Of a stretch of 64,000 nucleotides of DNA, positions 12,124 to 62,943 are shown in pieces. The stretch is from Styela clava. Taxonomy: Eukaryota > Chordata > Ascidiacea > Stolidobranchia > Styelidae. Numbering within the stretch: position 1 is the stretch's first letter; each line of letters begins with the position of its first letter. Under the pieces are notes generated by a model. That model made no database searches and had not been told where the DNA came from. It was given only the letters and a program-made list of their open reading frames with translations. The stretch lies in contig NC_135261.1 in assembly GCF_964204865.1 (NCBI RefSeq), positions 16,802,001 to 16,866,000 of the forward strand, given 5' to 3'. The position numbers were made by a program, and so were the translations under genes.

Positions 12124-12855
12124 CTAGGTGCTGGCAGGTGACAGGTAAGAAGAGAGCATGAATTTTTTAAATTTAAATTTAAAGATGTCATAAGTGGAGT
12201 CACGTAGACTGAGGGGAATACTGTTCCAAATTAGTACACCTTTGTATTTTAGGGAATTTTGTGTTAAGCCTAGGGAAAAACGTGGTACAAAAAGATTAGA
12301 CTTAGTCGAGGAGCGGGTATTGTGCTCATGTACATTACTAAGACTTAGAAAATAATTGTCAAAAGCTGCGGGTAGATTATTGTTGTGGTATTGGTGCATA
12401 ATCTTGGAGACCTCTAATTTGTAGATGTCTGACAATTTTAGCACCCTGGTCTTAGGGTATAGGATGTTTAGGTTGGAACGAAAAGGAGCTCTAGCGAGAG
12501 TTCTAACAGCTCTATTTTGAAGAACTTTTAATTTATGCAAATTTGTTTGGGAGGCAGCCCCCCAAGCAGCTACAGCATATTGTATATATGGTTGGAAAAG
12601 GGCAAAGTATACGGTTCGAAGGGTTGCGTCATGTATATAATGCCTGAGCTTTCCTAGAATACCTACTGATCTTGAAAGTTTCCTATGTATTTCAACAGTG
12701 TGGGTGTTCCACTTTAATTTGTTGTCAATAATGAGCCCTAAATATTTGTAAGAGTTGACAATTTCGAGCGAGATTCCTTTAATCACACTAACCCTTACAC
12801 ATTTGCATGCTATACACAGCATAAATTCGACCAAGGATAAAAATTTTGTACACAC
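12124..12855 (-). pseudogene. LINE reverse transcriptase C-terminal fragment
   Basis: A 243-codon open frame matches the thumb and C-terminal part of non-LTR retrotransposon polymerases of the Jockey/CR1/L2 type. It contains YKYLGLIIDNKLKWNTH, then LRTVYFALFQPYIQYAVAAW, LQNRAVRTLARAP and the terminal NSIPLSLRDS. The catalytic RT palm (the xADD box) and the endonuclease are absent, so this is a 5'-truncated copy, as LINE insertions often are. It belongs to a different lineage from the copy at 13524-14882 by sequence. Confidence 0.8.
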
Positions 12856-12890
12856 GCAGGACGCAGCATATAGTACTACAGCAAGTTAAA

Positions 12891-13450
12891 ATGTAGGGGA
12901 GAATCCAAATATACCTCGACGTACAGGAGTTAAATTTTACCGTCTACAACCCTCACAAAGAATCACACCACCCAAACAGAAAACAAAGTTCACGCATGTG
13001 GAATATCAGAAACCCAACATTGAAAAGAAAGGAAACATGCGCATGCAGATATCAGAATGTGAACAGCCATATTAAGGAAAATCTAGAACAAAATAAATGG
13101 CCAACTAGAATGCAAAACAGATGGAGAGAGCTCAACTGCTTGTTCAAAATTAATTAGTAATCTCAGAAACAATAACAATAGGGGAGAATCCAAATATACC
13201 TCGACTGGTCACCTAATTACAATATTAGGTACAGGAGTTTAATTCTACTGTCTACAACCCTCACAAAGAATCACACCACCCAAATAGAAAACAAAGTTCA
13301 CGCATGTGGAATATCAGAAACCCAACATTGAATGAAAAGGAAACATGCGCACGCAGATATCAGAATGTGAACAGCCATATTAAGGAAAATCTTATGCTAT
13401 AGAACATGCCAACTAGAATGCAAAACAGATGAAGAGAGCTCAACTTATGT
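12891..13450. repeat. Two ~250-270-bp direct repeats
   Basis: The block beginning aggggagaatccaaatatac at about 12896 recurs at about 13181 and shares over 200 bp (ctacaaccctcacaaagaat, acgcatgtggaatatcagaa, gaacagccatattaaggaaa). The second copy has an extra piece (ctggtcacctaattacaata) near its start. It is non-coding and lies between the two LINE fragments inside the hAT element. Confidence 0.8.
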
Positions 13451-13523
13451 CATGGTCTTTCTTTTGAAGTTGTAGCTAATTACATACGAAAAATATATAA
13501 CAGTGTGATTCTAATAATAAATT

Positions 13524-14882
13524 TTAATATTTTGATACCAAGTAGGACTTGACTTTTTTCTGAAAAGATTTTTTGGATTTCAATGTCTTCAAATTCAAGG
13601 GGAGAGAATTCCACAGCTTGGGCCCAGTATAACATAAGGCATGCTGGCTCACAGATGTACTCATAAAAGGTATGAACAGGTTGGAACTACTTCTTCGATT
13701 GGAAGTAATTTTAGTTAGTATGTCGTCGAAGCAGTTTGGCAAGGAATTGTTATGGAAATCATGGACTAATGATAATACTTCAAATTTCATTAAATCTTCA
13801 ACTTTGAGTATATTTAGCTTTTTATAGAAATGGTTTACACTTTCACGTTTACCTTTCCTAAAAAGAATTCTTAAAAAATTATTATAAATACTTTGCAATT
13901 TTGAGACAAGTGTTTTATTACCATGGAGCCAGACTGAGCAACAATATCGGATATAGCTGAGTAGTAATGATTGGAACATTGCTAGTAAAGCTGATTGATT
14001 AACACACTGGAATACTTTGGCAGCAACTGCCAAGTTTCTTTTTGTTTTACCAATAACATGCAGTATGTGTGATTTCCAAGACAGATTTTCATCGAAGATA
14101 ACTCCTAGAAATTTTATTTCTTTCACTCTTTCAATTTCATTGCCATTGAGCAGCAGTGGTTTTGTACAACTCACACTTTTATGCTTGCTTGGATGGAATA
14201 ATACAAATTTAGTCATGTTAGCATTAAGAGATAATTTATTAACTAACATCCAGCTATGAATGTTGGCTAGTTCGTAGTTTGCAACTGTGAACAGATCTTA
14301 AAGGTTTTCCCCATGAAGAATCAAGTCAGTGTCATCAGCAAATATGATTGACTCAGAGGATTTCAGACACCTGGACATATCATTAATGTAGGCTAGAAAA
14401 GATAATGGACCAAGTAAAGATCCTTGAGGAACTCCGGGCTTCATGACACAAATATTTGTAGAGAATGAATTGTCATATTGCACAATTTGTTTTCTGTCTT
14501 GCAGGTAGCTCCTGATCCAATTGAATGGGACGCCTCTAATTCCATAGTGATAGAGCTTACTTAAAAGGATGGAATGGTCAATGGTGTCAAAAGCTTTTGA
14601 AATATCAAGGAATATTCAAATTGCATGTTGTTTGCCTTCAAAGGCCTTGGTTAGTTTGTGTACCAAAACATTAGCAGCCATAGCAGTGGAGTGTTGCTTG
14701 TAGAAACCGAATTGATGCGAGTGGAAAACATTGTTGGTTTCAAAGTAGTTTGACATTCTACTATACATTATTTTTTCAAGAATCTTAGGCAATCGGCACC
14801 AATCGGCAAAAGCGACAATTTTTAACGATAAGAAATTGTCTTTAAAACCGGTCCAAGTCAAGGGATTAATAAATATAGACAT
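13524..14882 (-). pseudogene. LINE polymerase fragment, broken
   Basis: Minus-strand pieces of one non-LTR polymerase lie in order: RT fingers (14882-14616: RLPKILEKIMYSRMS, FHSHQFGF), palm (14483-14298: [13 protein letters not shown] and [11 protein letters not shown]) and thumb/C-terminus (14249-13524: IKFLGVIFDENLSWKSH, KLWNSLPLNLK). Frame changes and stops separate the pieces and the endonuclease is missing. The family looks Jockey/CR1-like. A more decayed copy of the same family lies at 17980-18180. Confidence 0.8.
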
Positions 14883-15075
14883 AGTTTATTTTGAAACCTC
14901 TTTCAAAAGGAAAGGATATATTTACCCAGATAAATACAATGACATATTAACAGAAACTTCGGGAAAGCAGACAAAACCTAAAATAAGGTTTAAAACGTTA
15001 CTATGAAGAAAGGAAAGTTAATGCAAAGATAAGGACATGCGTCGCTCACTCATAAATATATATGCTACTAGACTT

Positions 15076-16271
15076 CTACTGCTTGAACATATATGCAACA
15101 CGCCGCGGTTTCTTGGAAGCAAAATGCTCAATAACGCGCTGATTAAAGTCATGCATCCCAGATATAACTTCTCTGTGAATGGATAAAACAGCCAAGGAAT
15201 TTAATCTATCTTGCTTCATTGTGTTTCTGAGATACGTTTTAATACGCTTCAGCGTGCTGAATGTTCGCTTTGCGTCGGCGGAAGAAATAGGCGTCGTCAA
15301 AATGATGTCCAGAAATTTTGCAGACGCCGCAAAGGTAGTTACTAGAGTGTTATCTATGAGGAACCCATAGAGCGCGCAATTTGATGTGATGTTCAAAAAA
15401 GTTTGATTGGTGTATATACATCGCAATTCATTTTCCAATTTACCCACGTTTATCATGGGGTAAAATTTGGAGACAGTAGCCAACAAATGGATGGGAAATT
15501 GACCTGCAAATTTTGAAAAATTTTTGGGGTTCATCAAAGAGAACGCGGCAAGGTGTTCAGTGCGCAGACGATCGCCTATTTGATTCACCAGAATGTCACA
15601 GCATTCCTTTGCAGACAAAATCAAACGCTGCGTTGTTTGCCCGCGGCGTAAAGAAGCACTCCATGTGTCGTCGTATTTTATTGTTTCCCGGATACGAGAT
15701 ACAGCATTGCAGAAGTCTGAAATACACGACTGCACAGACGCTCTATCCATTAGCCTTGACTGCAATGCGCCGTATAATACATCCACGTGATAGAATATTG
15801 TGGAGAAAAAGCGAGAAAAAATGAAAACTCACCATCTTCTAGCAGAAGCTTTAGACCTGCCGCCTCCCTCACAGAGCGTTCGTCCCAAACCGGAGAGCTC
15901 TGAATGCCATTGAAACACTCAATGAGCTCAGACCTAATTTCGGACACGCCCTGCACCATGCGTGATTGGAAGTTCCAACGTGTTGGTGCACAAGCTGGGA
16001 GACGGCGGCTACATATCTGGCGAAGGAGGTCAGAGCGCTTCGGCGAAACGGAAAAAAATGAAGAAAACCCCGAAACATTTGTTGCAAAAAATATACGGAC
16101 GAGAGGGGTATCAAGACACATATTTTTAATAACGAGGTTAAATTGGTGTGCATAACAATGTAAAAAATGCGCATGAGGAAAATCTTCTTTTATATAAATT
16201 TGAACACCATGTTTCGACCCACTCATGACTGCCGCGCCGTCATAAGTTTGAGCTATCAATTTTGACTTCAA
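15076..16271 (-). pseudogene. hAT transposase relic (ZMYM1/DUF4371-like)
   Basis: The N-terminal part present (16271-15830) has AQTYDGAAVMSGSKHGVQ and AHFLHCYAHQFNLVIKN, the catalytic-core hallmark of ZMYM-type hAT transposases. The C-terminal part (15786-15076) has TTPISSADAKRTFSTLKRIK followed by RLNSLAVLSIHRE, the hAT dimerisation region. The parts lie in different frames joined near 15780-15830, by a frameshift or an unresolved short intron. The zinc finger and the first half of the RNase-H fold are missing upstream. It is the only transposase in the 9324-16735 element and is read from its right end inward. Confidence 0.82.
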
Positions 16272-16735
16272 TTTTGACTAAAGGTCTCTAACTGATTCAA
16301 ATAGCGAAACAAGCGACAAAAACGAAGGCGAGGAAACTATCAACTCTTCAAGCAACCAACGAACGAGAAGGAATGCGTGAATATGTCAACACGTTGTTGT
16401 AAGAAACGTCGGCATTGTGTCGTCATAATTTTGGGGCTAGCCCCGATCGGCCCTGATGATTCAGTAAAAGAAACAGAAAACAAACGAGACAAACGCGGCG
16501 AGTGGAAGATAAAAGAGAGAATACGATATACAATGAGCAACCGGGGCAAAATCGGCGTCGTCCCGTCGACGTTCGGCGAAGGCTTTGCGAGCGAAAAATG
16601 AACCATGTCGGGAGAATATGGCTAGTGTAGACAGTCTGTGCAACCGATATTGAGGTATTTTTCGAATATTTTTTATTATACCGAAAAAACAACCGGGGCA
16701 TTGCCCCGGTTGGCCCTATTGACGCGCCGCCACTG

Positions 16736-22207: not shown

Positions 22208-25200
22208 TTACATATTTGCGTGATAGCAAGGATCCCCGCACACAACATCTCCAATCTTCTTAGCTAATTTCACGTTCAGATCATCAAATCCGTTTTCCCA
22301 AGCGTCCATTATGACGTTTTCTTCACCTCCGGCTATTTGAGTAATCTCACCAAGTAGAGCTTCTTCGTCATATGGGCCGGTAGGCTTGATAGGCAACACT
22401 TTTATCTGAAATGAGATAATGAAAGTATTAAAACAACAGAACAGAATTTTTTATTAATTTAAAACTATAAATTCATTACTATTTTATTTTTCTTATGTCT
22501 TCAGCAAAGTTCTGCAACAAGTAATCGTAAAAATACTTACCATTCCTTTGTTTGCCACAGCTCGGAAATATTCAGCGGCAAAAACAGCATCGTCTTGTGG
22601 TTGTCCATCAGTTACCAGAAGAATCATATCATGAGAATCATCTCTGTTTTCGGGCGAATCAAAAATAGTAGCTGCATATGTAATTGCTTTGCCGGTACGA
22701 GTTCCTAGTAAAAGTAATACGATGGGGTGAAAATGTACATCGTCGGAGAATAATTACATGCATTTGTGTATTAGATCAATCGGCGCTCCGGTGTGTGTGG
22801 AGGTAACTAATTTTGTTCGCCTACTTCGTATATACACTTGGCTAAAACAGACAGTTCCCGAACTTGTAATAGAACTAAAATAAAGAGAATCGGAAAAAAA
22901 TTATCGCCTAACCCTAACCCGGTACATACATTACGGGAGTACCGATTAATCATTTAGATGCCCTGTCAAAAAAAATTCTGATTGTCATCGTAAATTCTTA
23001 AAGCTATTGCATTAAAAGGAAAGACTTCTTACCACTTCCGTCATATGGAACATTTCTGAGATGCTCGATAAATTCTTCATTTGTTCTGATCTGACCAAGG
23101 TTAACCTGTATTGGAAAGTGATAAAATGAAGCTAATAATTATGTGTTTGTTTTAAATCTAACGACTCCCTATAATCCCTATAAAAACTGACATGGGCAAA
23201 CTACGGCGCGTTGGGTACTTCAATTTGATCCGTTGGATGAAGCCACAACCAAACTAAATCCAAATTTTGATGTTTGAGCTAGAAAATAGCTCAAGGAATT
23301 TGTTAAGATTGAATTAAATTCAGTTTTGGTACGAAGCTTACTGTTTTCCACTTTTGCTTTTGTAACACTGTAACATTGGTCATAAAATGTCACTTTTTAC
23401 GTCACACTTACATGTCCCGCTAGTCTAGATGGGAAAACCTTGCCCACCCATGCTGTAAAACAATCCCACCAAGACAACTAGTATATAACAAAGATTGTAT
23501 TCGATATATAGTTTCATCTCTTTTTCTTTGGTTTATGAATCATTTAACCTTCTTTCTCAGGCTCTCACTTTTATTGGATATTATGTGAATGCCGCGTCAT
23601 CTGCTTTTTGATAGAATTCTATCAGAAGAATTATTGAAAAATGTTCATATTGGTACATACCTGCGATTCTACATCAACTTCAGAATTGTATCTTGCAAAG
23701 GCAAAACGAGATGAGTCGAGAGAAAGATCGAACTCTCTGAATTAAATATACATGTTAAAATTATTTAAGTCCAAATCTTTTATATGTATGTAAACTTATT
23801 AAATTAAGCACCATCTATATATTATTGAGTTGTAACCTAATTTATTGCCATACATAAATCATATTCAAGATTTGTTAAAAATCAAGTAGTTGACATTAAT
23901 ATACACAAACATACTGATTGTACACAATTTTAGTTTTCCTTTTGGTAGAAATTATGTGCAAAACCAAATAAAAGAGTTTAAAATACTCACGAAATGAAGC
24001 CGATTAGAAAATCAATCATTTTGTTCCAGTTTGGCAATGTGATGGACGAAGATGAATCAATCAAAAGCAATAAATCCATAAAGGCATGTGGCGGACAAGT
24101 TTCTGTTGAAAAGACAAAAAATGATAGTAACAAACTACCTTAGCTATTTTCAACCATTTTCCAGGCCAGCACAATTTGTAATCGTGGTGGGTTATCGGGA
24201 ACGTAGAAGCGCCCGCCAGTTGGCGCATCGTGTCAAGTAGTAGAAACACGCCTGCCATCGCATGTCTTTTAATGATATGATTAAGCCCACGTATCAATTT
24301 ACTCTCGTCTTGATGAATATAAAAATACTCTGAATTCTATTGCCTATGTATAATTAAACGGCACTAGACTGAAAACCAGAATATCTACAGATCCACGTCT
24401 AGAATGAATTTTCAACGTTTTATTATTCAATTTAAAAACATGACCATATGAAAAAGAATAAAAGTTTACATACTTGCACAGCAAGGCTTGGCAACGCTCC
24501 ATTTTAAATTGTTTTGACAAGTGCTTTGAATAGAATTTGGTGGGTAAAGATAAAATCCGTCATCCAAACATTTGTATTCACACACTGAGTTTACATCGGT
24601 GTCATTAGAACATGAAATTTCACCGTGCTTCAAAATTCCAGGTTCATTGCATTGTAGAGCTGTAATGAAAAGAGCGAATTTCAATGGACTACTCAAAAAT
24701 CGCACAATTACGTCAGTTTTCGGCAGAACCAATCTCCAACTCATTTAATCAACAAATCAATAATTGCATGTACCTTTGCACGTAGGTACTGATTCCGACC
24801 AGGCACCATATTGTTTACTTCCAGAGTTTTTGCAGATAGAATTTCTTTTTCCAATCATAGTGTAACCTGCACTGCACTTAAAGTTACAAATGTTTCCAAC
24901 TTTATCACCGTTGCATGAGACAGTTCCAAATTCTAAATACTTCGGTGCATTTCTACACGTGATTGCTAAATGATAAGAATAGATAAGATACCTTCAACCA
25001 GCCAATATTTTTTGAAATTCCATAAATGCTGTTCGAACAAAGACAAATTGTTGGCTAAGTTGATAAAATGTACCTTTTAAATACAGATTTATAAAAAAGA
25101 TAGTTATGGCTTACGGGCGCAAAAAGGTTCCTTTCCTTTCCATACACCTGTTTTAGGAATAGTGTCATGGAGAGAACATGTCCTCTGGGCATTTCCACCA

Positions 25201-28200
25201 CCAAGCCAATATCCAAAATCGCAAGAATATGTGCAGACACTACCGACTTTAAAGTCACGTTTGCACTTGATTCTTGAGTTGCTAGGTGCCTCTAATGGTT
25301 CGCACTCAACGCCTAAAAAATATGTAAATGTAAATAAAATTGTACGGTATTCATATCGATAAATAATATTCAAAATTTTATTTAAATGCATTATGTCGAA
25401 ATGCATTATTTGGAGACGTTTCAAACAAAAAAACTAAAATGACCCTATTACTATAATGACTGCGGGTATCGTACTATCGGAGTGTGATTAATTAATGGGG
25501 TTATATGTTCCACCGTTTTTGTTTTCAACTATCACGTGATTCTACGGGATTCTACTAAGTTCACATTGCAAACGATGTTTTCTATAAGAAAATACCTTCA
25601 AACTAGATAATTAAGAAAAATTATATTACGGTTAACCTACCGGTTTGTATAGGGCTATCTATTACAAGCTTGACAATAATCGATATCGAAATCTTCTTAT
25701 AGCCAGTACAAAAATATTTTATTCGTTGTGGTAACTTACGTTTACACGTTGGTGGTACATTAGTCCATCTTCCAACTGAATTGTCATTATACATGCATGT
25801 AATTCGTTTGTCTCCGACAAGAATATGATTCTTTGAACATCTGAACTCACAGACCTGTCCTTGTTTGTGAATTGCTCCAAACGTACATGCCCGAGCTCCA
25901 AACGCTGGAGTTTTGATATCATTACACAGCACCTCTGTTAAAATAAATATGATGTAATAAAGCAAACAATTATTTCAAAATAGAAGAAATAACATTGCTT
26001 ATTAAAAACTCTTCTATATGAGGATATTTAAACATATACAGCAATATTCTCACTTTGCTAATATTTTTTCTCAACAAAAGACGTATTTTCTTGTCACACT
26101 CGCAACACTTTTTATTGTGGCAACATTTCCGGTTATGGTGTAATGTATTTGTTTCCTACCTTTACAATATCCACTAAACTCTGACCATTTTCCTGTCTCC
26201 TGGCACTCTGACGTCAAATAACCAATGGCGTGGTAACCAGCATTGCACGATGCCCTAAAATGAAAAGTTATAATCATATGAGTTGAAAAGTTTGAAGAAT
26301 GTAATAGGCATGAATTCAATATTTTGATTGAAATTGGACTTTGTATTCACGGAACACTACTTACACACAAGTACTCTGATAGAAATTTCCTTCCCTGCAG
26401 GAGGTAATTGTTCCCATGAATGGGTCTTCCGGTTTCACTGGTTCGCATTTGACCTCGACGCACGTAGCACTAAACGGCACATACTTGACGCCATCATTTC
26501 CAAGATCTTTTAAATTAGGAAATTACGTAAAAATCGCATTCATACATATTAATTTGTTGTCATTAATTAGCAAAAATAATAAACAAATCAGAATTCTAAT
26601 ATTGAATTGGCAATAATCCACTGGAATTGGCGTAGAATGAAGTGATGTTTAAACATGGAGGAAATCACATTATTCCAATCTTTAAATTTAGCACACTTGA
26701 TTTAATAAGATATCGTTTCCCGATTAAACCCTACTTACCCATGCATGTAGTTGATTTTTGTCCGATAAGTCTGTAACCCTTTATACACGAGAATCTACAT
26801 TTATCTCCAATCGTGTCATCTCCCATGCATTGTATGATACCGTGCTTGGGTGCCACTGGACGTCTTTTGCACTTGTTCACTGTAATGAATGTGAAGTATT
26901 TCATGAAACACTCAACCTTATTTTTTATTGATAACACGCGTTTGCTCACTCTATCGCAGATTCAATTTCCAGCATAGTAAAGTACATTGGTCATTTGTTT
27001 CCGAATACAAATGTAAATACAATAGCTTGACTAAGTGAATTCTTTGAAAGTAATTAAACCCACTTGAACGTATCATGTAGGACGTATGTAATCGGATTAT
27101 GTAACACAGATTCTAAATGCTCTTCACACACGACACTTTAAAATGTTTAATTAGATTAACAGTCTGGCATGTGCAATATTGTCGAATTCGATGTTACTGT
27201 GTGTTGAAGTTTCGCGTTGCATTGCGTTGGGCCATTTGTGAAACTTGCGGTATTTCAATCAAAGTTAAGTCATCTTGATCAATTTGGGACATTAGACACA
27301 GGACAGTTCTAACTCACCAATTACACACTTCACATGCTAACTCACATTTGCATTTCGGCATAGGCGAACTCCATTTCGCGATTGGAGTTCCGACGTCACG
27401 GCAAACAGATGTCAAGGCTCCTATCAAAACATATTCAGCTGGGCAAGAAAACGTACACGTGCTATTCAGGTCATTATCATCACTACATGACGTGAACAGC
27501 AGACCTTGAGGTTTTCGAACGCGACAAGTTTTTTCTGTAAAAACAGTGAAATGAATTTATTATGATGTCACGATCAGGAGATTTAAATACATTATCAAGG
27601 TCGTAACCCTTTCGGGAAGCACTGATGGAGCAAATTTGATTCGAACTATTTATGACAAGTCTAACGGCACATTTTTATGCATTCGTTGCTTCACGATCAT
27701 TAGTGGGCGCAAGTAAAATAGAGTTAGTTTTGCAGTATAACGTCACCATACAATTATATTTTGAAAGTGTGAATAGTTTTGTGATATTTTTCATCGGAAT
27801 TCTAATCAGACTAGCATACCAAAGAATTGGATATAGAATTGGTGGGTAATGATTTAACCAAGGTGATTTAATAAACATATTTCCGTGGAAAGCGTCGGCA
27901 AATAAAAAGTTTTTAACGCAATCTACATACCCAAGCAATAACCAGTAGAATCAGACCACAGTCCGTTTTCTTGGCATATAATGCTCAGTTCATCGACTTG
28001 AAAATAACTCTCTTCACAAGAAATCCTGCGTAAGAAAATATAATAATCAACATGAATTTCTCAAACAAATTTTAAAATTACACAAATGAGAAATGTATAG
28101 AACATGAATAGTCAAACATTCACCACCATAATGCAAACAACACATTACAGTTTAAATAAAGCGTTTGATTAAATCTGCTCTATCGTTGTGCTGTTACCCG

Positions 28201-30503
28201 TGGGTAAAGTTATATATATACATACTCGCACACGCTCCCGATATTGTCCTCGTCAGAGCAATTCCCTCTAACTGCACCCGAAGAAATCGTCGTGTTTGAG
28301 GGGCAAGTTGTTCTCTGACAAACTGGTGGAAAAGGCTGGTAGATGGATCCAAGTGCACCGGCGGCTAACAGAAACAATTAGGTCGTTAAAAAAAATCTTA
28401 CATGTTTTCTAAATCATTATTATTAGGTTTTGTTGCGAATTAAACTTAGGGAATGCAAAAAAAAAACCTACCATAATAACAAAAGCAGTGGGCAAAAATT
28501 TGAAACTAACATTGTTCTTCCACCTCTCTTTCAATTTGGTCTGCGACTGTACCGGGTGACACGAATTTCATAATGTTAATTTAACTGTGTTGAAGAATTG
28601 AAATGAAACAAAATATATACAGTTGACTGTGATACTCAAAAACATTTTTTAATTAAATTAGCTATGCAGTCTTGGCACGAAGCTTATTGTTTTCCACTTT
28701 TGCTTTTGTAACACTGTAATCATTGGTTATAAAATGTCACTTTTTACGTCACACTTACATGACCCGCTAGTCTAGGTGGGATATTATGTGAATTTAGCCA
28801 ATCATGCATTTGAAAGCAAAATTGATAATCTTACGTAGACATGTTGTGATGATTTCTCCAACCAACTCGAATCCTGGATTGCATGTATAACTACAAAATC
28901 CTCCGATTATGTTGCCTCCGATACAATCAAATTTACCGTTTTCAATGGGTGATGGAGTCTCACATTTGTCACCGGCTGCAGATATGAAAATATATAATTG
29001 ATCATAAAGAATACCGAAATGTCCGGTATTATTAATACCATAAATTATACATTTACAAAATCAGAAAGCAAAGTTGCACTCACATCTTCTGTCTGGAGCA
29101 AGTGTTGGCAATATGTCCGTCACAGGCGTTCCAATGCAGCCATCCAAGTGGTTGCATTCATCGGTAAAACAACAACAATGGCAAACAGAGTTCTCGGTAC
29201 CGGAGTTACATTGTGTTGAAGGTCCTGATGGCATAGTGTTCTAAAAAAAAATATATATATATATTTACACAGAGAAAAAAAAACGACTAAAAAATTACTA
29301 AACATAGCTCGAGTCAATTCGTTCTTGATTAGATTTGGTAAGGGAAAAGATGCAAATTGAGTTTCGATTACCGGAATTGTTTTTGGAGTAGTATCCTCTT
29401 TTGAAATCATCTTTTAAATCGACATTTTGTCGTATATACATGATCATGACAAAAATAAGTTGCGCAGGGAAGCTTTTCTATTTTTGAGCGTAATAAAAAT
29501 CTAACATTGTGTCACAATAGTCGGTCATGAATATTAAGCGTTTGAGTTGTACATATCAACCAACCCTTTGCTATCAATTACGTCCAACACATTTTAAATT
29601 ACTTTTCGAAATAGCTTACTTACCTGTTTGACGTTGTTTTCGCAAGCGTGCTGCTGTTTACATCTTTTAGTTATTCTTGTCACTCCGCTATGGATTCGTA
29701 CTTGAGCATGACATGATTGCTGAAAAGGGAATAATATTTAATTAAACAAATGGATAATTGCAAGTATTTTGCATTAAATAGCTATCGAGACATGGGGAGT
29801 AAATGCTAGATAAATTCATCAGGGGGTATATTTTAAAAAACTTTGCTTTTTGAAGAATCAAAGAAAATTATCGACACCAGTGTAACTTTCCACACGGAAT
29901 TAAGCGCAATATCAAATATAATAAATTTTAATAAAATACCATTGGTAAACAATCACAGCAAAATAAATGAAATTTTTCTTACTTCGTTTTCTTGGCAGGT
30001 CACAATTTTTCCGTTTGTCTTGCAGTCGTCGTGACTTTGCGCGTTATCGCAACTAATGCAACGAAGGGCTAAATAAACAATTAGGATGTTTATAAAATTT
30101 GTAAATAGAATACGGTAGTATAGGTAAGCAATAAACAAAACTAAGCAGTTTATACAAACACTTGAATGATTATAATAAATATCGCATTAAAGTGCAAATA
30201 TATATATAACAGAAATAACGCATTGCTGCAAATAAAAACTGCTTCAGCAAAATTAAGACTTGATTCAAATAAATATTAAACTACTGATATTTTGAGTTTG
30301 ACACGAAAAATGAAATTTATAGCTTACTCAAATTGGCCAAAAATTGTTCAGTGAAAATACGAGTTCAATACTCATACATAGAGTACAGAAGACAAGAAGC
30401 TGCCGAACCCTCAGAAACTTTTCAAAGTTCAAACTTTCTACTAACCTTCGGAAGTCGCAGCAAAGCAACATGCTATCAATATGAAAAATTTCTTCGCGTC
30501 CAT
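22208..30503 (-). CDS. Secreted Ly6/uPAR - nine-sushi - vWA protein, 20 exons
   Basis: Exons 5' to 3' on the minus strand: 30503-30446, 30068-29983, 29719-29624, 29240-29084, 28975-28835, 28364-28226, 28025-27931, 27534-27346, 26879-26739, 26506-26365, 26254-26160, 25934-25740, 25312-25115, 24965-24774, 24659-24474, 24102-23991, 23736-23661, 23105-23033, 22704-22541, 22405-22208. Introns are GT/AG, phases agree, total 2733 nt (910 aa plus TAA). Residues 1-19 are a signal peptide (MDAKKFFILIACCFAATSE). A Ly6/uPAR-type cysteine-rich domain (LRCISCDN ... CCCFTDECN) spans about 21-120. Nine sushi/CCP modules span about 135-703, mostly with the six-cysteine pattern known from selectins (CKRRPVAPKHGIIQC, KCRFSCIKGYRLIG). 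A vWA domain spans about 706-900 with MIDAS motifs LLIDSSSSI, GTRTGKA and LLVTDGQ. No protease or transmembrane segment follows. Adhesion or complement-like recognition is inferred from domains only; I recognise no named orthologue. Confidence 0.86.
22795..22945. repeat. Dispersed repeat, intron copy of 2185-2305
   Basis: This segment of the intron between the last vWA exons reads acttggctaaaacagacagt, then cgcctaaccctaacccggta and attacgggagtacc. It matches the MCC-intron copy at 2185-2305. It shows no inverted termini. Confidence 0.5.
23330..23455. repeat. Dispersed repeat present twice in the sushi/vWA gene
   Basis: About 120 bp (acgaagcttactgttttcca ... acatgtcccgctagtctaga) recur at 28672-28790 in another intron of the same gene with few differences, including the shared tttttacgtcacacttacat. 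It is non-coding and the class is unknown. Confidence 0.6.
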
Positions 30504-33199: not shown

Positions 33200-35106
33200 G
33201 TGCTATTTTTTTTTGGATAGCAGTTCAATGTGACCACTCCAGTTCAACAAACAATCAATTTCAAGTTCCAAGTAAGAAGCTGTTTCTACTTTTTTCAGCT
33301 TTATACTATCAAAATACAAATTACCACTCGCATGTTCATCCTTGAAAATTACAATGTATTTGACCTCCTGGGGATTCACAGTTAGCTTGTTGGAGTGCAT
33401 CCATTTACTGATCTTCGAGAGCGCAGAATTGCAATCGGTTTCTAACTGGTGAAAGGAACATCTCGAAATTTTGAAAGAAGTGTCATCAGCGAAAAATGTG
33501 TCGAAAATTTACTGGAATTATGAATACCATTCACATAGAGTATAAATAATAGAGGCCCCAAAACAGAACCTCGTGGTACATCCATATATAAACATGTTTT
33601 GACGTAGATCTCACATTACCACAAATGACATGTTGCATACGTTCGCTCATGTCACTTTTGATCAGCACCAGGGCTTATATACCATAATGATGAACATTGT
33701 GCAATAATATGGAGCGATCAATTGGGAAACAGATTTTTTCAAGTCCACATGAATGTTAACAGAATGTTTTATTTTCCGCAATATTCATATAATGATGAGT
33801 ACCACTGTCTAAAACTGCGTGAATAGTTGAGTGTTCAATCTCAAACCGAATTGTTTATCTGACAAAATATCAAATTTGTCCGAATATTCTGTCAATCTAG
33901 AATGCAAAAGTTTTCCAAAAACTTTAGATATAGCTGAAAAAACTGGAACTACTGATTTTAACACAGGTAGCCTACCACTTTTGTTACGTTCAGGCATTGG
34001 GAGAAAGCTCTTCGCTGCATGCATGCATTAAATAAATCTGTAAGGTCTTTGCTAATGATATGACTCATAAGTTTTAGAAAACAAATAGACAGATCGTCCG
34101 GACCAGAAGTTTTTCCCGTATCCATTTTATTTACAATAGAAATAATTTCATATTCTAGTATATGCTCCAGATAAATAGATTTTTTTTGAGGTTTGCCCAA
34201 ATCCATAAAATTTATAGAATTATTCGTCAGCTCCGATGAAAGATTGGGACCAGTGTGAAATTCTTGACATATTGGCATATGGATTGGTTGTTGCATATGA
34301 TGCCATGAGTTCGTGTGGAAATTTACGTTTAAGTTTCTTATTTGTGATTGTGTTAGTCAGACTTCGTGTTTTTTTTCTGTCACCCTCTCGTTCTTCAAAT
34401 CCTTTTTGTTATCATCATTCTAGCATTTTGCTTGATGTGTGTGAGAATGTTGGAGTATCTTTTGTAATATGTTATTTTTGTTTTGTCGGTGGACAAAAAA
34501 AAGACTTTCATATAAAAATTTACGAGTCGAGATCGATTACTTGATATCTAACGTGAACCATGGTTTTGAGTCAAATCTCAGTTCTTTACGTGTTTTTTCC
34601 TTAGCAGGGCATGTATGTCATCAACGCATTTTAGAGTTTTCAGAAGCGTATCAAATGATTTTTCAATATCAGTCTTGAACAGTCAATATTTAATTTAGCT
34701 GTTGATTTTTCAATGTCTTCCAAGAACGAGTCAAATTGAAAGTATTTCAATGATCGCACAAATTTTTTCTTGGAATATTTTTTTTTTGATGTATGCGAAG
34801 TATGCACACTATAGGAGAATGGTCAGAAATACCTTATTACAAGGCATAACCTAACAGCTGTAATCCATTTTCGTCGCTGTAGCCTAAATAAGATCAATTA
34901 ATGCAAAAATTATCAATGATTATGGTAGGCGCAGTTGTTAACACTTGTAATGAATTACACAATAACATGTTTGAGGATTCTAAAACGAAAGAATCGGAAG
35001 TTTTGCACAAATTTATATTGAAGTCGCCATGAAAGAAAACTTTTTTCTTGTTTGCCCTAATTTTGTGCAGCGACTCGTTTAGCAATGTGTGGAAGAGGAC
35101 TTGCAC
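33200..35106 (-). pseudogene. Degenerate LINE: endonuclease plus reverse transcriptase
   Basis: Minus-strand pieces in order: an apurinic-type endonuclease with FFHGDFNINL (near 35010-35050) and ISDHSPIVC (near 34810-34845); the RT N-terminal part with SGPDDLSICFLK (34296-33958); the fingers with VFSAISKVFGKLLHSRL (34024-33809); and the post-palm fragment NKLTVNPQEVKYIVIF (33400-33203). Stops and frameshifts separate all pieces. This order is that of Jockey/CR1-type elements. Its upstream end meets the foldback-like structure at about 35092. Confidence 0.72.
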
Positions 35107-38100
35107 GGGTCACGTGACTTTGTTACTGGACGGCAATAAAACAAAAACGTCCATTTGGCTCCTGTCAGTTGCAAGTCGGATTATACGTTTCCGTTTTGTT
35201 TGGCTGTTGAAAATGGTTATTTCGTATTGTTCCGTTTGATGTACGTATAGTATATAGACAACGAAATAAATCTTAGGTTATCTTCCATTGATTTCAAAAG
35301 ATCCGGAACGTCGCGCAATGTGGATATCATCTATTGCCTATTGGCAGAACTGCTTGGTGTCAAGTCCAGAAGCCATCTCACTTGTGTTTCACTGTTTGCG
35401 GACAGCACTTCGTTGATAGTGAGTGATAATGTGGTGATAGTGTGCCGTTATCAATTTCTTTAAATATTCACAAGCTCCCTCATTTCAATGGAAAGCAGAT
35501 GACAAACTACTGTTATTAGTAGGCCTAGGCGTGGGCCTACTTGCAGTTGCAGACTTGACTTGTGTAAGACAGTAATGAATTAATAATCAATTGCTTTGAG
35601 CCTTATAGTATAAGGTATTGTTTCCCTTATTAGCAGGTAATCTATTACTAAGTGTGAAAGGTTGAATAGATAACTAAAGTTTAACACCATGGGGCCTGGA
35701 AAAAATAACCAGAATTAAATTGAATTCGCCATCTAGGAATACGCTCGCCACCGCATCTCTGATCACCCTGGTAGTTTCACAGGTTCCAATCCCATGCGGG
35801 GATGTGCGAGAAGATTGCAGCTCTACTCCCACCGAGGGTGGTTCACATGACCGCTGATCGGTTACGACCATTCCCCACCATCCAAGTCCATGCTTCTGAA
35901 AATAAATAACTGGCTCCTCACCCAGATAAATCCTATCCTAATGGTGCTTGTACAACTGATCCAAAATGTCTTTTTATTGTCATTGGTAAAAAAGATATGC
36001 TACCCGGAATCAAATTCATTTACGACTAGCGGCTGTGGTGGGATATGAACATAAATTTCACACTCCTTGATCGTTAGATTTTATGAAAACTCTATCTGTA
36101 TCCATTATCTTACAGATATGGGTGTGACCATGGAATAGATGAATGGCAAAGTATAAGTTGCAACAAGACCACAGTGGCACAAGACCTCAGCTTGCGTGAC
36201 TTGATAATACATCCTCAGTATCCATTTATTGATGCTTATCGTAATGACAAAGTAACTTGGGATTACTGTGGATTGGTGGAGATAAAGTGTCCATTGTGCT
36301 TTAACGAAAGCAACTTCAAAACGACCCTATCAAGAAAAAAAATTGTTTCGGTGGGTCTGGTAGTGAAGGTTTCAGTCTAAAGTTGGACACCGATACTACA
36401 ACCAGATACAGTTGCCAATGCACCTGGCGTAATATTGCGACTTTGTGATCTGAAAGAAAATTCTGATGGGTAGCCGACTAGCAGCAACATTTTGTTTAAA
36501 GAAGATTATGAGATATGACTTAAGAGTCTAAACTTTTATTTGAGAGGGGTGTAACCCAAGCTAATTTGCAAATGGTATTCATGGTACCAAATGTATCACA
36601 CACTTTACAGTAATTATAAATTATATTTGAAAAATAAAGCACATCAAAAATGTATTTTTAAAAAACAATTGGTTTTATCTGCAGATACTAGGTTGATATT
36701 GAGATTGACCATTTCAATGCTAAATCAATGTCAAAAGGCACACTTGATTCGCAAAGATTTGTGAATGCGCACAGTACACCAATTTGTGTAATGTTTTGAT
36801 TCCATAGGCAGGAGGTTGTGGATCGGTGCTGCTCAGGATGGGATATTTTTGCCTATAAATGCATATTACGTGTTTCACAATCCATCGTGCTCAGATTCTT
36901 TAGAGTGTGGTAGGTCTAGTCGAAAGACACATTAAATGTTTATGCTAACAACTGCAAAGTAATATTGCAACGCATACAAGTTAACAGAATTTGTTGAAAT
37001 GGTCCTGCCTTTTGCCTTTCTTCAAAATCCCCCTTTTTCTAACTATTCTCTTCCTCTCTGGAGATGGCGAAAATTCAAATATCGATGGGACATATAAGCA
37101 GCTGATAATGGGTTATCTTCCCTTATTCCTGAAAATAAATTAAACACTAATCATCATTTGACAGTGCCAAGTTTGTGTATCAGATCAGTAATAAATTACC
37201 TGCTAACTATTAAAACAATCAGACAACACCTTCTGACCATTAATGAAGATTTCTTTCAATTTAAAACGCAACTATGCCTACCAATGTGGGTAGTTTTTAG
37301 AATAGAATTTATCTGTGGTTATGGACGGATTGCAAGGTGCAACATCGTACGATTACCATTCTATGTCGGGATTAGTTAGCCAGTTGTTTGTTTTAGAAGC
37401 ATGGTATTGATGGTGGGAGATGTCGTAATCAACCAGCGGTCGTGTGAACCACCCTCAGTGGAAGGAGAGCTGCAATCCCCTAGCACATAACTATCCCCGC
37501 GTGGGATTGGAACCTGTGAAACTCCCAGGGGGATCAGAGATGCGGTGGCGAGCGTATTCTTAGATGGAGAATTGAATTGAATTTTGGTTATTTTTTGCAT
37601 AAGCACTGATGTTAAACTTTAGTTATCTATTCAACTTTTCACACTTACTAATAGATTACCTGCTAACTAGGGAAACAATACTCCATGGCAATTATTGATT
37701 AATACCTTACACGAGTCAAGTCTGCAAGTAGGCCTACGCTTAGGCCTACCAATAACAGTAGTTTGTCATCTGCTTTCCATTGAAATGAGGGAGCTTATGA
37801 ATATTTAAAAAATTGATAACGGCACATTATCACTCACCATCAACGAAGTGCTGTCTGCAAACAGTGAAACACAAATGAGATGGCTTCTGGACTTGACACC
37901 AAGCAGTTCTGCCAATAGGCAATAGATGATATCCACATTGCGCGACGTTCCGGATCTTTTGAAAACAGTGGAATATAACTGAAGATCCATTTCGTTGTCT
38001 ATAACTCTATACTATACGTACAGCCAGCGGAACAATACGAAATAACCATTTTCAACAGACAGACAAAACAGAAACGTATAATCCGACTTGCAACTGACAG

Positions 38101-38174
38101 GAGCCAAATAAACGTTTTTGTTTTATTGCCGTCCAGTAAACAAGGTCACGTGACACGTGCAAGTCCTCTATATA
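35092..38174. mobile_element. Foldback-like element with ~0.8-kb inverted arms
   Basis: The left arm (35092-35913) and right arm (37378-38174) are inverted copies. Outer ends both read agaggacttgcacg; shared inner blocks include ggcaataaaacaaaaacgt, gtttctgttttg-type and ccatgcttct-aaataactggct segments, and each arm contains the SINE-like unit seen at 7130-7290. Some indels separate the arms. The 1.46-kb loop carries a YqaJ-like remnant (36117-36335). It may be a transposon with long inverted termini or an inverted duplication; a target duplication was not resolved. Confidence 0.68.
36117..36335 (+). pseudogene. YqaJ-type exonuclease-like exon remnant
   Basis: After an acceptor-like tatcttacag, the frame reads YGCDHGIDEWQSI, then LIIHPQYPFIDAYRNDK and CGLVEIKCPLC. 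This resembles the C-terminal half of the YqaJ/lambda-exonuclease-like fold (hP..PF..a.pD...CG.GLVEIKCP). The catalytic aspartate region looks altered (DAYRND in place of the usual SPDG). No complete gene surrounds it. YqaJ domains occur in animal mobile elements, so it may be a remnant of the structure's own gene or of captured host DNA. Confidence 0.45.
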
Positions 38175-41610: not shown

Positions 41611-41706
41611 AACGCCGGGATAAGGCGCCCGATGCGACGCTCATCAGAGCCCACAAAAGGTGTTGGTTGATCTAGACAGCAGGACGGTGGCCATGGAAGT
41701 CGGAAT

Positions 41707-41740
<34 letters not shown>

Positions 41741-42698
41741 TCAACCAGCCCTGAAAATGGATGGCGCTGGAGCGTCGGGCCTATACCCGGCCGTCGCGAC
41801 GACACGGGCCGTTCCACGGCGCTATGTCGCGACGAGTAGAAAGGCCGCAGCGGCGGGCGTCGAAGCGTCGAGCGAGAGCTCGCGTGGAGCAGCCGTCGGT
41901 GCAGATCTTAGTGGTAGTAGCAAATATTCAAATGAGAGCTTTGAAGGTCGAAGAGAAGAAGGGTTCTATGTGAACAGCAGTTGAACATGGGTCAGTCGGC
42001 CCTAAGGAACAAGCGAACGCAGTTCGACGGGGGGCGTTGCTCGTCTTCGCCCCCGGTGTCCGAAAGGGAATCTGGTTAATATTCCCGAGCCTCGACACGG
42101 AGATTGGCGCTTCGGCGCCCGGTGCGGCAACGCAACCGAACTCGGAGACGCTGGCGTGGGTCCCGGGAAGAGTTCTCTTCTCTTGGTGAGGAGCGCAGGC
42201 TCTGGAATCGGATCGCCCGGAGATAGGGCTGGCAGCTCCGTAAAGCACCGCGTCTCTTGCGGTGTCCGGTGAACCCGCGTCGGCCCTTGAAAATCCGACA
42301 AGATGGTGTAATTGTCGTGCGAGGCCGTACCCATATCCGCAGCAGGTCTCCAAGGTGAACAGCCTCTGGCCGACGGAACAATGTAGGCAAGGGAAGTCGG
42401 GAAATCAGATCCGTAACTTCGGGAAAAGAATTGGCTCTAAGGGCTGGGTCGGTCGGGCTGAGGTACAAAGCGGATGCCGGGACTTGACCGGACTGGGCGA
42501 ACGCTTGCCGCTTCACGGCGGCCGGCGTGAGCTCGGACCTGCGTCCGGTCCCTATTCGTGGACTGCCGCAGCTGCGCGGGCCTCGCGGCTCGCTTCGGCC
42601 GGCGTCGAACAGCCAACTTAGAACTGGTACGGACCAGGGGAATCCGACTGTTTAATTAAAACAAAGCATCGCGATGGCCGCAACCCGGTGTTGACGCG

Positions 42699-42730
<32 letters not shown>

Positions 42731-42751
42731 AGTGAAGAAATTCAACCAAGT

Positions 42752-42831
<80 letters not shown>

Positions 42832-42897
42832 AAGATTCCCTCTGTCCCTGTCTGCTATCCGGCGAAACCACAGCCAAGGGAACGGGCTTGGTAGAAT

Positions 42898-42931
<34 letters not shown>

Positions 42932-43288
42932 GAGTCCGACTTTGTGAAGAGACATGAGAGGCGTAGGATAAGTGGGAGGCCTTCGGGCCGACAGTGAAAT
43001 ACCACTACTCGAATCGTTTTTTGCGCATTCAGTAAAGCGGAAAGCGACCCGGCAACCCCGGGTCACACTTCTGGCCTTAAGCCGCCGGCGTTCGGTCGCC
43101 GGCGATCCGCTCTGAAGACGGTGTCAGGCGGGGAGTTTGCCTGGGGCGGTACATCTGTCAAAGAGTAACGCAGGTGTCCTAAGGTGAGCAAAAGGGCAAA
43201 AGCTCACTTGATTTGGATTTTCAGTATGAATACAGACAGCGAAAGCGTGGCCTATCGATCCCTTTGAGTTTGCGAGTTTCAAGCAACG

Positions 43289-43328
<40 letters not shown>

Positions 43329-43431
43329 AGCCAAGCGTTCATAGCGACGTTGCTTTTTGATCCTTCGATGTCGGCTTTTCCTATCATTGTGAAGCAGAAT
43401 TCACCAAGCGTTGGATTGTTCACCCACTAAT

Positions 43432-43475
<44 letters not shown>

Positions 43476-43827
43476 TTACCCTACTAATGTAGTGTTGTTG
43501 CGATAGTAATTCTGCTCAGTACGAGAGGAACCGCAGATTCAGACATTTGGTTCATGTGCTTGGCTGATAAGCCAATGGTGCGAAGCTACCATCTGGGGGA
43601 TTATGACTGAACGCCTCTGAAGTCAGAATCCCGCCTAAGTAGCGACGATAATCTGGTGCCTTGCCGCCGTCGAGGCGAAATTAAGCGGCCGTCTGGCCGC
43701 CGGCGAAGCCGAGTGTTTCGACCCTTTGGCGCGAGTGAACGACTTGCGCCTAAGTCGAGGCGAGCAACCTGCGCGAAGGCAAGGTGCTAAATCATTTGCA
43801 GACGACCTAGTTGAAGATCGGGGTGTC
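41611..43827 (+). pseudogene. 28S rRNA 3' part, copy 1 (5'-truncated, with deletions)
   Basis: The sequence joins 28S abruptly at aacgccgggataaggcgccc, well inside the molecule, and continues through ggtgttggttgatctagaca, the R2 target region and the sarcin-ricin loop agtacgagaggaacc (43519) to the 3' end near 43827. Against copy 2 and the conserved 28S core it lacks 7 nt (about 42800) and about 29 nt (about 43189). The region before 41611 is single-copy-looking DNA next to a hAT. Loss of conserved helices makes a functional product unlikely. Confidence 0.88.
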
Positions 43828-44807
43828 GTAGGGAAAGGTGGGGCACGTTGGGACATGGGGCACAGTGGAAAATCAGCTGTCGCACTGATACTATATCCGC
43901 AATCTTGTCCGCGGTTCGATGTTTCAATCCGCCTTTCGGTGAGTTACAACGTCCCCGCGAATGGACAACGGACGGGTGGAGCGGCGCAATCTATGAGGTG
44001 AAATTGGTTTTGGGAGGTTGAAACTAAAATTTCACCGTTTCAGTTTTTTCTTTTTTTTACTGTAGCCTTCCCAACATGACAAACCACCGTCTGATATTTT
44101 TCCGCTTTAGTCCACTGTAAAATATTCATAACGTTGGCGAGTGGATGTGCCTTCCGAATTTCGCCGTGGGATGGTCTGAAAATATTTGTTTCCTATGGGG
44201 AACAATGGACCTGGGTCCAGTGGGACATGCCCTACAGGGCACAATTCGACAGTGTTTGATACAATAAGTGCTTAGAGACCTAGAGATGCAATATATTTTG
44301 TGTAGTATTATGGTTTCTTTCGACCCATGGCCCAATATGGAATATATTCGAGAATCAATAATATTTCCACATTTAGATTCACGGAAGGAAATAATCAGTT
44401 TTATTTGCAAACTTTTTGGCCAAATATCTGAACTATTCCAGTTGAACATTGATTTAAAAAATATTAAATCTTCAAATTTGAAGTCTTTCTGTTCTTTAGA
44501 CGATTATGCTGATTAAGTGCTTATTTTTAAGGGCATACTTCGTTGAATTTTGGCAGACTGACCCATTGTGCCCCAGAGTCTGTTCGAATGTGCCCCACAA
44601 GTGGGGTACAGTGGAACACTTGACATACGATTTTCAAAGCATTTTGGTAATAAAATGTGTGTCGCAAGGAAATTTCTTAGTCGCTGAATAAAAACTACAT
44701 TTACCCCTCTATGCATTAGTCCCGCCAACTTAAGTTAATATGCTGAATTAACGGCTCAAAATATGCAAAAGAAAAAAAGTGTCCCAACCTTCCCCACTTT
44801 CCCCTAC
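43828..44807. mobile_element. 980-bp TIR DNA element at the 28S 3' end
   Basis: The ends are inverted repeats of about 27 bp: GTAGGGAAAGGTGGGGCACG on the left and, reverse-complemented, GTAGGGGAAAGTGGGGAAGG on the right, both followed by TTGGGACA. A TA at each border (43829-43830 and 44805-44806) could be the target duplication. The interior repeats a tggggcacagtgg / ctgggtccagtgggacatgc theme near both ends but codes for nothing recognisable. Confidence 0.72.
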
Positions 44808-47114: not shown

Positions 47115-47683
47115 TATCTGGTTGATCCTGCCAGTAGTGACATGCTTTTCTCAAAGATTAATCCATGCAGGTGCAACTACGAGTTCTCGTAAAGCGAAAC
47201 TGCCAATGGCTCATTAAATCAGTCTTGGTTTATTTGGTCTCGTAAGCGAAGTGGATAACTGTGGTAATTCTAGAGCTAATACACGCTTTTATCAGATCAA
47301 AACCGACCGGGTTCGTCCTGTGACGTTTGATGACTCTGGATAACCACGCGGATCGTACGGTCTCTGCACCGACGACGTATCATTCAAGTGTCTGCGCTAT
47401 CAACTGTCGAAGGTACGCTCCGTTCCTACCTTTGTGATAACGGGTAACGAGAAATCAGGGTTCGATTCCTGAGAGGGAGCCTGAGAAACGGCTTTCACAT
47501 CCAAGGAAGGCAGCAGGCGCGCAAATTACCCATTCCCGACACGGGGAGGTAGTGACGAAAAATAACAATACAGGACTCTAACGAGGCCCTGTAATTGGAA
47601 TGAGTACATCCTAAAACTCTTAACGAGTATCCATTGGAGGGCAAGTCTGGTGCCAGCAGCCGCGGTAATTCCAGCTCCAACCG
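47115..47683 (+). pseudogene. 18S rRNA 5' fragment (569 bp), truncated
   Basis: The fragment starts tatctggttgatcctgcc and runs to ccagcagccgcggtaattcc agctccaaccgt, i.e. through the 530-loop, then joins an IGS repeat in mid-unit. Relative to the full copy it carries changes at near-universal positions (gacatgcttttctc in place of gatatgcttgtctc; attaatcc in place of attaagcc). It cannot give a functional 18S. Confidence 0.92.
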
Positions 47684-49216
47684 TAAGACAGAGTTAACTC
47701 GAATGAGCCGAGAGCAGCGTGCGGTGCGGGGCAGTCGGGTTGGGATGGGGCGCACACTCCCTCGGCGGCGGGCGAAAGAGTGCTGCGTCGCCGCCATCGG
47801 CGTCGATAGAGGCCGTGCCGAAAAGAGTTGAGTGACGGCACGTGCAAGCATACTAACCTAACCCTATATAAGGCCCGTGAGAGCGAAACACAGTAAACTC
47901 GAATGAGCCAAGAGCGACGGGCGGTGCGGGGCAGTCGGGCGGGATGGGGCGCACACTCCTTCGGCGGCGGGCGAGAGAGTGCTGCGTCGCCAGCATCGGC
48001 GTCGAGAGAGGCCGTGTCAAAAAGAGTTAAGTAACGGCACGAGCAAGCATACTAACCTAACCCTAGGTAAGGCCTGTAGGAGCGAAAGACAGAGTTAACT
48101 CGAATAAGCCGAGAGCGGCGTGCGGTGAGGGGCAGTCGGGTCAGGATGAGGCGCACACTCCCTCGGCGGCGGGATAAAGAGTGCTGCGTCGCCGGCATCG
48201 GCGTCGAGAGAGGCCGTGCCGAAAAAAGTTGAGTGACGGCACGTGCAAGCATACTAACCTAATCCTAGGTAAGGCCCGTGAGATCGAAACACAGTAAACT
48301 CGAATGAGCCAAGAGCGACGTGCGGTGCGGGGCAGTCGGGGCGGGATGGGGCGCACACTCCCTCGGCGGCGGGCGAGAGAGTGCGGCGTCGAAAGAGGCC
48401 GTGCCGAAAAAAGTTAAGTGACGGCACGTGCAAGCATACTAACCTAACCCCAGGTAAGGCCTGTAAGAGCAAAAGACAGAGTTAACTCGAATGAGCCGAG
48501 AGCGGCGTGCGGTGCGGGGCGGTCGAGGCGGGATGAGGCGCAAACTCCATCGGCGGCGGGCGAAAGAGTGCTGCGTCGCCGGCATCGGCAACGAGAGAGG
48601 CCGTGCCGAAAAGAGCTAAGTAACGGCACGAGCAAGCATACTAACCTAACCCTAGGTAAAGCCTGTAGAAGCGAAAGACAGAGTTAACTCGAATAAGCCG
48701 AAAGCGACGTGCGGGGCAGTCGGGTCGGGATGGGGCGCACACTCCCTCGGCGGCGGGCGAGACAGTGCTGCGTCGCCGGCATCGGCGTCGAAAGAGGCCG
48801 TGCCGAAAAGAGTTTAGTGACGGCACGTGCAAGCATACTAACCTAACCCTAGGTAAGGCCTGTAGAAGCGAAAGACAGAGTTAACTCGAATGAGCCGAAA
48901 GCAACGTGCGGTGCGGGGCAGTCGGGTCGGGATGGGGTGCACACTTCTTTGGCGGCGGGCGAAAGAGTGCCGTGTCGCCGGCATCGGCTACGAGAGAGGC
49001 CGAGCCGAAAAGAGTTAAGTGACGGCACGTGCAAGCATACTAACCTAACCCTAGGTAAGGCCTTTAACAGCGAAAGACAGAGTTAACCTGAATGAGCCAA
49101 GAGCGGCGTGCGGTGCGGGGCAGTCGGGGCGGGATGGGGCGCACACTCCCTCGGCGACGGGCGAAAGAGTGCCGTGTCGCCGGCATCGGCTTCGATAGAA
49201 GCCGAGCCGAAAAAAG
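47684..49216 (+). repeat. IGS tandem array 2, ~200-bp units
   Basis: The array starts inside a unit (aagacagagttaactcgaat) fused to the 18S fragment. Units start at 47853, 48052, 48254, 48439, 48641, 48838 and 49040. The unit at 48254 is shortened to 185 bp by loss of part of its middle (gcggcgtcgaaag). It ends in the same aaaaaagttaagtacaaacg junction with the ETS as array 1. Confidence 0.9.
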
Positions 49217-62340: not shown

Positions 62341-62360
62341 TAGCCAAATGCCTCGTCATT

Positions 62361-62395
<35 letters not shown>

Positions 62396-62455
62396 TCCTC
62401 TGTCCCTGTCTGCTATCCGGCGAAACCACAGCCAGGGGAACGGGCTTGGCGGAAT

Positions 62456-62496
<41 letters not shown>

Positions 62497-62875
62497 ACTT
62501 TGTGAAGAGACATGAGAGTCGTAGGATAAGTGGGAGGCCTTCGGGCGACAGTGAAATATCACTACTCCCATCGTTTTTTTGCTTATTCAGTAAAGCGGAA
62601 AGCGACCCGGCAACCCCGGGTCACACTTCTGGCCTTAAGCCGGCGGCGTTCGGTCGCCGGCGATCCGCTCTGAAGACGGTGTCAGGCGGGGAGTTTGACT
62701 GGGGCGGTACATCTGTCAAAGAGTAACGCAGGTGTCCTAAGGTGAGCTCAGCGAGGACGGAAACCTCGCGTAGAGCAAAAGGGCAAAAGCTCACTTGATT
62801 TGGATTTTCAGTATGAATACAGACCGCGAAAGCGTGGCCTATCGATCCCTTTGAGTTTGCGAGTTTCAAGCAAGG

Positions 62876-62915
<40 letters not shown>

Positions 62916-62943
62916 AGCCAAGCGTTCATAGCGACGTTGCTTT
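62341..62943 (+). pseudogene. 28S rRNA copy 2, portion 3' of R2, truncated
   Basis: 28S resumes as tagccaaatgcctcgtcatt and matches copy 1 from 42789 to about 43355, keeping both segments that copy 1 has lost (ctcgtca and tcagcgaggacggaaacctc). It stops at gacgttgctttt (62943), where copy 1 continues gatccttcgatgtcggc. Unrelated LTR sequence follows. Confidence 0.92.

Follow-up and report, generated by a model that had tools for sequence, protein, structure and literature searches.

A stretch of 64,000 nucleotides from the genome of the ascidian Styela clava (NCBI RefSeq assembly GCF_964204865.1, contig NC_135261.1, positions 16,802,001 to 16,866,000 of the forward strand; hereafter the window) carries a predicted gene whose product would combine a Ly6/uPAR (LU) head, a nine-module sushi array and a von Willebrand factor A (vWA) tail in one secreted mosaic protein. 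On balance we consider it fairly probable that this is one intact gene, encoding a soluble or matrix-deposited adhesion or recognition bridge with putative partners. An earlier note on this DNA had described the same combination of domains, and that observation is confirmed here.

Gene model and exon structure

Splice sites were used to put the exons together by hand, and the result was checked by script. Twenty minus-strand exons join into a single open frame that contains one stop and encodes 910 residues, running from an ATG at 30503 to a stop codon at 22208; the exon and residue counts are the same as in the earlier note. All 19 introns have GT-AG borders and are 108-555 bases long, and the G+C content is 0.428 in the exons versus 0.309 in the introns. 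A TATA-like element, GGTATATAAG, is found 5' of the start codon. The exons, all on the minus strand, are listed below with the evidence for each assignment.

30446..30503, minus strand: exon 1, start codon and signal-peptide-like stretch MDAKKFFILIACCFAATS (hydropathy; TATA-like element upstream)
29084..30068, minus strand: exons 2-4 (30068-29983, 29719-29624, 29240-29084), Ly6/uPAR at about residues 21-112 and linker to 132 (PDB phmmer match to LYPD1; ten LU cysteines)
28226..28975, minus strand: exons 5-6 (28975-28835, 28364-28226), sushi 1 (137-196, phase-1 split) and first part of sushi 2 (Pfam; module alignment)
27931..28025, minus strand: exon 7, rest of sushi 2 (200-256), following a phase-2 intron (module alignment)
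27346..27534, minus strand: exon 8, sushi 3 (261-320) (module alignment)
26365..26879, minus strand: exons 9-10 (26879-26739, 26506-26365), sushi 4 (324-383, phase-1 split) and first part of sushi 5 (module alignment)
26160..26254, minus strand: exon 11, rest of sushi 5 (388-445), following a phase-2 intron (module alignment)
25740..25934, minus strand: exon 12, sushi 6 (450 to about 510) (module alignment)
25115..25312, minus strand: exon 13, sushi 7 (515 to about 576) (module alignment)
24774..24965, minus strand: exon 14, sushi 8 (581 to about 640) (module alignment)
24474..24659, minus strand: exon 15, sushi 9 (645-702), seven cysteines, CC end (module alignment)
22208..24102, minus strand: exons 16-20 (24102-23991, 23736-23661, 23105-23033, 22704-22541, 22405-22208 with the stop), vWA with MIDAS and tail CGDPCYHANM (Pfam VWA; PDB ranking; D719-S723 and D823)

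Nine of the 11 module starts (LU, sushi 1, 3, 4, 6, 7, 8 and 9, and vWA) are entered by a phase-1 exon, and the remaining two, those of sushi 2 and sushi 5, lie inside exons 6 and 10. Sushi 3, 6, 7, 8 and 9 occupy one exon each, while phase-1 introns interrupt sushi 1 and 4, and phase-2 introns sushi 2 and 5. Phase-1 module borders are the rule for exon shuffling of extracellular modules, and the arrangement observed here fits such shuffling.

A candidate exon at about 28560-28509, between exons 5 and 6, disrupts sushi 1 and was dropped by eye because exon 5 joined directly to exon 6 completes that module (CLPAGALGSIYQPFPPVC). A 61-base repeat, 95% alike, occurs in intron 17 (23374-23434) and intron 5 (28721-28781) and is perhaps a dispersed element.

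Domain content of the predicted protein

Only three Pfam families, Sushi, VWA and VWA_2, score above their cut-offs in the 910-residue protein. Sushi was matched in nine stretches (E=2.3e-45, 153.2 bits), and alignment of the nine modules showed six cysteines in each with near-constant spacings of 13-16, 9-12, 4, 14-17 and 12-19 residues; sushi 9 has a seventh cysteine at the junction with the vWA. We take these six-cysteine modules to be of the selectin type. E-selectin in the PDB matches residues 387-511 (E=3.6e-7), and the best PDB matches of the sushi part are CR1, CR2, CD55, beta-2-glycoprotein I and factor H. The likeness to CR1, CR2 and factor H is generic, since chains with many repeats collect summed scores. 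A search of the window for the six-cysteine core pattern gave seven occurrences, every one of them within this gene and on the strand from which it is read; two modules escape the pattern because introns fall within their cores. In 50 first-order Markov copies of positions 20001-41000 the pattern occurred 0.1 times on average and at most twice, and the observed count thus exceeds chance.

The vWA domain was found by Pfam at residues 713-880 (E=8e-26, 91.7 bits), with VWA_2 overlapping it. NCBIfam gave weak vWA matches only (best 0.0065, far below its cut-off). The domain contains DSSSS at 719-723, T792, T794 and a TDG with D823, presumably the residues of the metal-ion-dependent adhesion site (MIDAS), which on this assignment is intact, as had been proposed. 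Among the matches listed (the best 60 of 80), its nearest PDB chains are collagen VI alpha 3, sporozoite surface protein 2, von Willebrand factor and integrin alpha-L, which are matrix or adhesion proteins. The value for collagen VI alpha 3, 6.7e-34, is summed over repeats, and its best single repeat printed gave 3.3e-6.

According to PMC4839075, an LU domain is roughly 80 residues long and its ten cysteines follow a fixed order, paired 3-26, 6-13, 19-39, 45-63 and 64-69 in the numbering given there. In the predicted protein the ten places are filled, in order, by cysteines 23, 26, 35, 44, 51, 68, 74, 103, 104 and 109, and the head ends in CC-x4-CN. Compared with that numbering, several of the loops are extended. 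The third loop has three extra cysteines (91, 100 and 102), two of which align with LYPD1 cysteines in the phmmer alignment, and a further one, 115, lies just past the domain. With the 97-residue head as phmmer query against the PDB, LYPD1 was the best chain, aligned over query residues 1-90 (E=0.0017), and the only other match was activin receptor 1B (E=1.9); the reversed head matched only nidogen (E=1.1) and no LU protein. NCBIfam profiles gave no match for residues 1-196. Based on the cysteine order and the LYPD1 match, we regard the LU domain as genuine, though divergent. The domain content and order given in the earlier note are thus borne out by Pfam, the LYPD1 match and the cysteine alignment together.

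The most hydrophobic 19-residue segments of the protein start at residues 3-9, and the best internal segment of this length scores 1.34 versus 1.83 in the signal stretch. No membrane segment was found by hydropathy, the C-terminus holding none of the top 12 hydrophobic segments listed, which agrees with the claim that an anchor is lacking. The predicted mass is just under 100 kDa, with four N-glycosylation sequons, and of its 74 cysteines 72 are located beyond residues 12-13 in the signal stretch; their number is even, so all could pair and a monomer is possible. The protein thus appears to be secreted, disulfide-rich and anchor-free. The immune or adhesion function that had been suggested for it is a reasonable proposal, but the label of receptor fits poorly with the lack of an anchor.

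Proposed role and alternative explanations

In the mechanism that we propose, the sushi modules would form a rod separating two binding ends. The vWA end may use a divalent metal in the MIDAS to attach to a ligand in the matrix or on a cell surface, and the LU head may bind a second protein, so that the molecule would bridge cells, matrix or foreign surfaces and would be neither an enzyme nor a membrane receptor. A bolder version is that the gene is a lineage-specific fusion of a three-finger LU head, a nine-sushi rod and an integrin-type MIDAS vWA, of undescribed architecture, acting as a soluble, metal-dependent bridge for self/non-self or pathogen recognition; we hold this to be quite doubtful.

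Several results weigh against the proposed gene and its role. Pfam reports no Ly6/uPAR domain in the full protein at E<=1, and the trimmed head matches the toxin/LU-type family PF00087 weakly (E=0.13, 13.4 bits, cut-off 21.2). AATAAA is absent from the 500 bases past the stop codon, the nearest one listed being at 21664, and AATAAA or ATTAAA is present in 12 of the 19 introns, although such hexamers are what A+T-rich DNA would give. In-frame ATGs precede two of the nine exons tested, exon 13 (25406 and 25391) and exon 15 (24744), and shorter products are therefore possible. None of the results favours an immune over a matrix role.

An alternative is that the model merges separate genes, two or three in number (one for a short secreted Ly6 protein, one for sushi modules and one for a vWA), or that the locus also makes shorter products. 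Read-through of the exon 4 donor would yield a short secreted LU protein, and the ATGs ahead of exons 13 and 15 and the poly(A)-like hexamers in 12 introns are in keeping with this alternative. The same is true of a hydrophobic 22-codon stretch opened by an ATG at 29041 in intron 4; this stretch runs into exon 5 in a phase that differs from that of the sushi modules. However, the introns at the two critical borders, intron 4 between LU and sushi and intron 15 between sushi and vWA, are only 108 and 371 bases long with canonical sites, and upstream of exons 5 and 16 the frame hits a stop before any ATG. The ATGs before exons 13 and 15 lie away from these borders, and exon 1 has the strongest signal-like start of the four stretches tested (2.98 versus at most 2.12 in the other three). 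Because the border introns are short and neither holds an in-frame start, separate Ly6, sushi or vWA genes are unlikely. The earlier note had named separate genes for the Ly6 or vWA exons as the outcome that would overturn it; judged from the DNA, this outcome is not favoured, and we regard merged genes or additional shorter products as improbable.

Given a single gene, a structural or adhesive matrix protein (of tunic, egg coat or glue), in which the vWA links collagen-like or carbohydrate partners, is a narrower form of the bridge reading; the likelihoods given to the two overlap, and those given to all readings do not total one. We consider this narrower form possible but the less probable. 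The vWA is closest to collagen VI alpha 3 among the matches listed, and matrix roles are also suggested by the CCP and VWA modules reported among Oikopleura house proteins (PMC3390340) and by Ci-sushi, a P-selectin-like protein reported in the Ciona larval tail (PMC8495957), but a house or tunic role follows by analogy only. A soluble regulator of complement, similar in kind to factor H or CR1, whose sushi rod would bind C3 fragments while the other domains tether it, would be in line with the top PDB matches of the sushi part and with C3, Bf and CCP-domain proteins reported from ascidians (PMC5465252). That sushi similarity is, however, generic and summed over repeats. Each module here also has six cysteines, against four in the modules of the regulators, and LU and vWA domains are not usual in known fluid-phase regulators; a regulator is thus unlikely. 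The order of sushi modules followed by vWA is that of factor B and C2 (PMC11312191), and the protein might be a relative of these minus its protease. Yet neither factor B nor C2 is among the best 60 of the 80 vWA matches in the PDB, and no serine protease was found, the frame stopping after the vWA, just as had been noted before. In the 5.9 kb downstream, no Pfam domain was present in the 17 minus-strand open reading frames (ORFs) searched out of 43 of at least 38 residues. On the vWA ranking and these downstream ORFs, a factor B origin was not favoured, and an LU head is not known from factor B; we consider such an origin very improbable.

If transcripts confirm the bridge protein as a single product, the gene would be a clear case of module shuffling giving a new mosaic of adhesion domains. 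An LU domain as the head of a sushi rod would be of interest for the early evolution of complement-like proteins and of matrix proteins, although the gene alone settles no long-standing question.

Genomic surroundings

Upstream of the gene, on its right and some 11 kb away, lies a ribosomal DNA (rDNA) cluster with retrotransposon insertions. These and the other features of the window are as follows.

41611-63157, plus strand: ribosomal DNA overall (rRNA matches)
41611-43894, plus strand: 3' part of 28S
47118-47699, plus strand: partial 18S
49589-51371, plus strand: full-length 18S match
57249-63157, plus strand: second large-subunit (LSU) match
58817-62341: R2-like retrotransposon in the second 28S, with a 1054-codon ORF encoding reverse transcriptase and one weak C2H2 finger
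51864-56849: BEL/Pao long terminal repeat (LTR) retrotransposon with 360-base LTRs, 97.8% identical, between 18S and the next LSU match
15079-15828, minus strand: C-terminal region of a hAT transposase, within minus-strand ORFs of 12127-16277

The break in the second 28S match falls precisely at the point that in the first copy has the sequence TTAAGG/TAGCC (42784-42794), and the match continues from 62341; the element inserted there is presumably R2-like. The coding region of the BEL/Pao element consists of four ORFs; the element is probably in the transcribed spacer, since it is flanked by 18S and the LSU match that comes next. At 45.3-49.2 kb the rDNA region contains tandem repeats with a length, judged from their spacings, of about 200 bases. 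On the other side of the gene, the minus-strand ORFs 12127-12885 and 13527-14297 have no Pfam match and by eye resemble the tails of non-LTR reverse transcriptases. At 33203-34356, fragments on the minus strand that read like reverse transcriptase (GSVLGPLLFILYVN) were seen, by eye only, and five inverted-repeat pairs at 35118-38144, 82-95% complementary and with 1.5-2.7 kb between arms, are perhaps a foldback-like or nested element.

Comparison with known systems

No paralogue was found within the window: of the 62 segments given by tblastn, five fall elsewhere than in the gene, and the best of these has E=0.53. In the viral and prokaryotic (not animal) collections IMG/VR and GTDB, where one stretch and 13 stretches, respectively, matched the search pattern, no related locus was confirmed. 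The titles and abstract openings of the open-licence literature searched gave no description of a Ly6, sushi and vWA architecture. Tunicate relatives by theme include the Oikopleura house proteins and Ci-sushi mentioned above, a Ciona gene listed under the name SVEP1 (PMC8495957) and vCRL1, a variable sushi protein of tunicates (PMC9265791, PMC5465252). We treat all four as leads only.

With LYPD1 and other LU proteins the predicted protein shares the ten cysteines in LU order, the CC-x4-CN ending and the alignment to LYPD1 over head residues 1-90. LYPD1 is a single GPI (glycosylphosphatidylinositol)-anchored LU domain, whereas here the domain would head an anchor-free mosaic of 910 residues. 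Six-cysteine sushi modules, taken to be of the selectin type, are shared with selectins and with Ci-sushi, but selectins also have a C-type lectin domain, an EGF domain and a membrane segment, none of which was found here by Pfam or hydropathy. SVEP1 (polydom) is likewise a secreted protein that combines numerous sushi modules with a vWA; its vWA is N-terminal and accompanied by EGF and pentraxin domains, which Pfam did not find here. In the species surveyed in PMC11312191, factor B and C2 combine sushi, vWA and protease, and by that definition the present protein is neither, because no protease follows its vWA in the frame. It differs from them also in its LU head and in a vWA nearer to those of collagen VI, von Willebrand factor and integrins, the best matches among those listed. 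The triple helix of collagen VI and the integrin head are absent here, and LU and sushi modules stand in their place. Sushi/vWA mosaics are a known class, and it is the LU head that is the unusual part of this protein.

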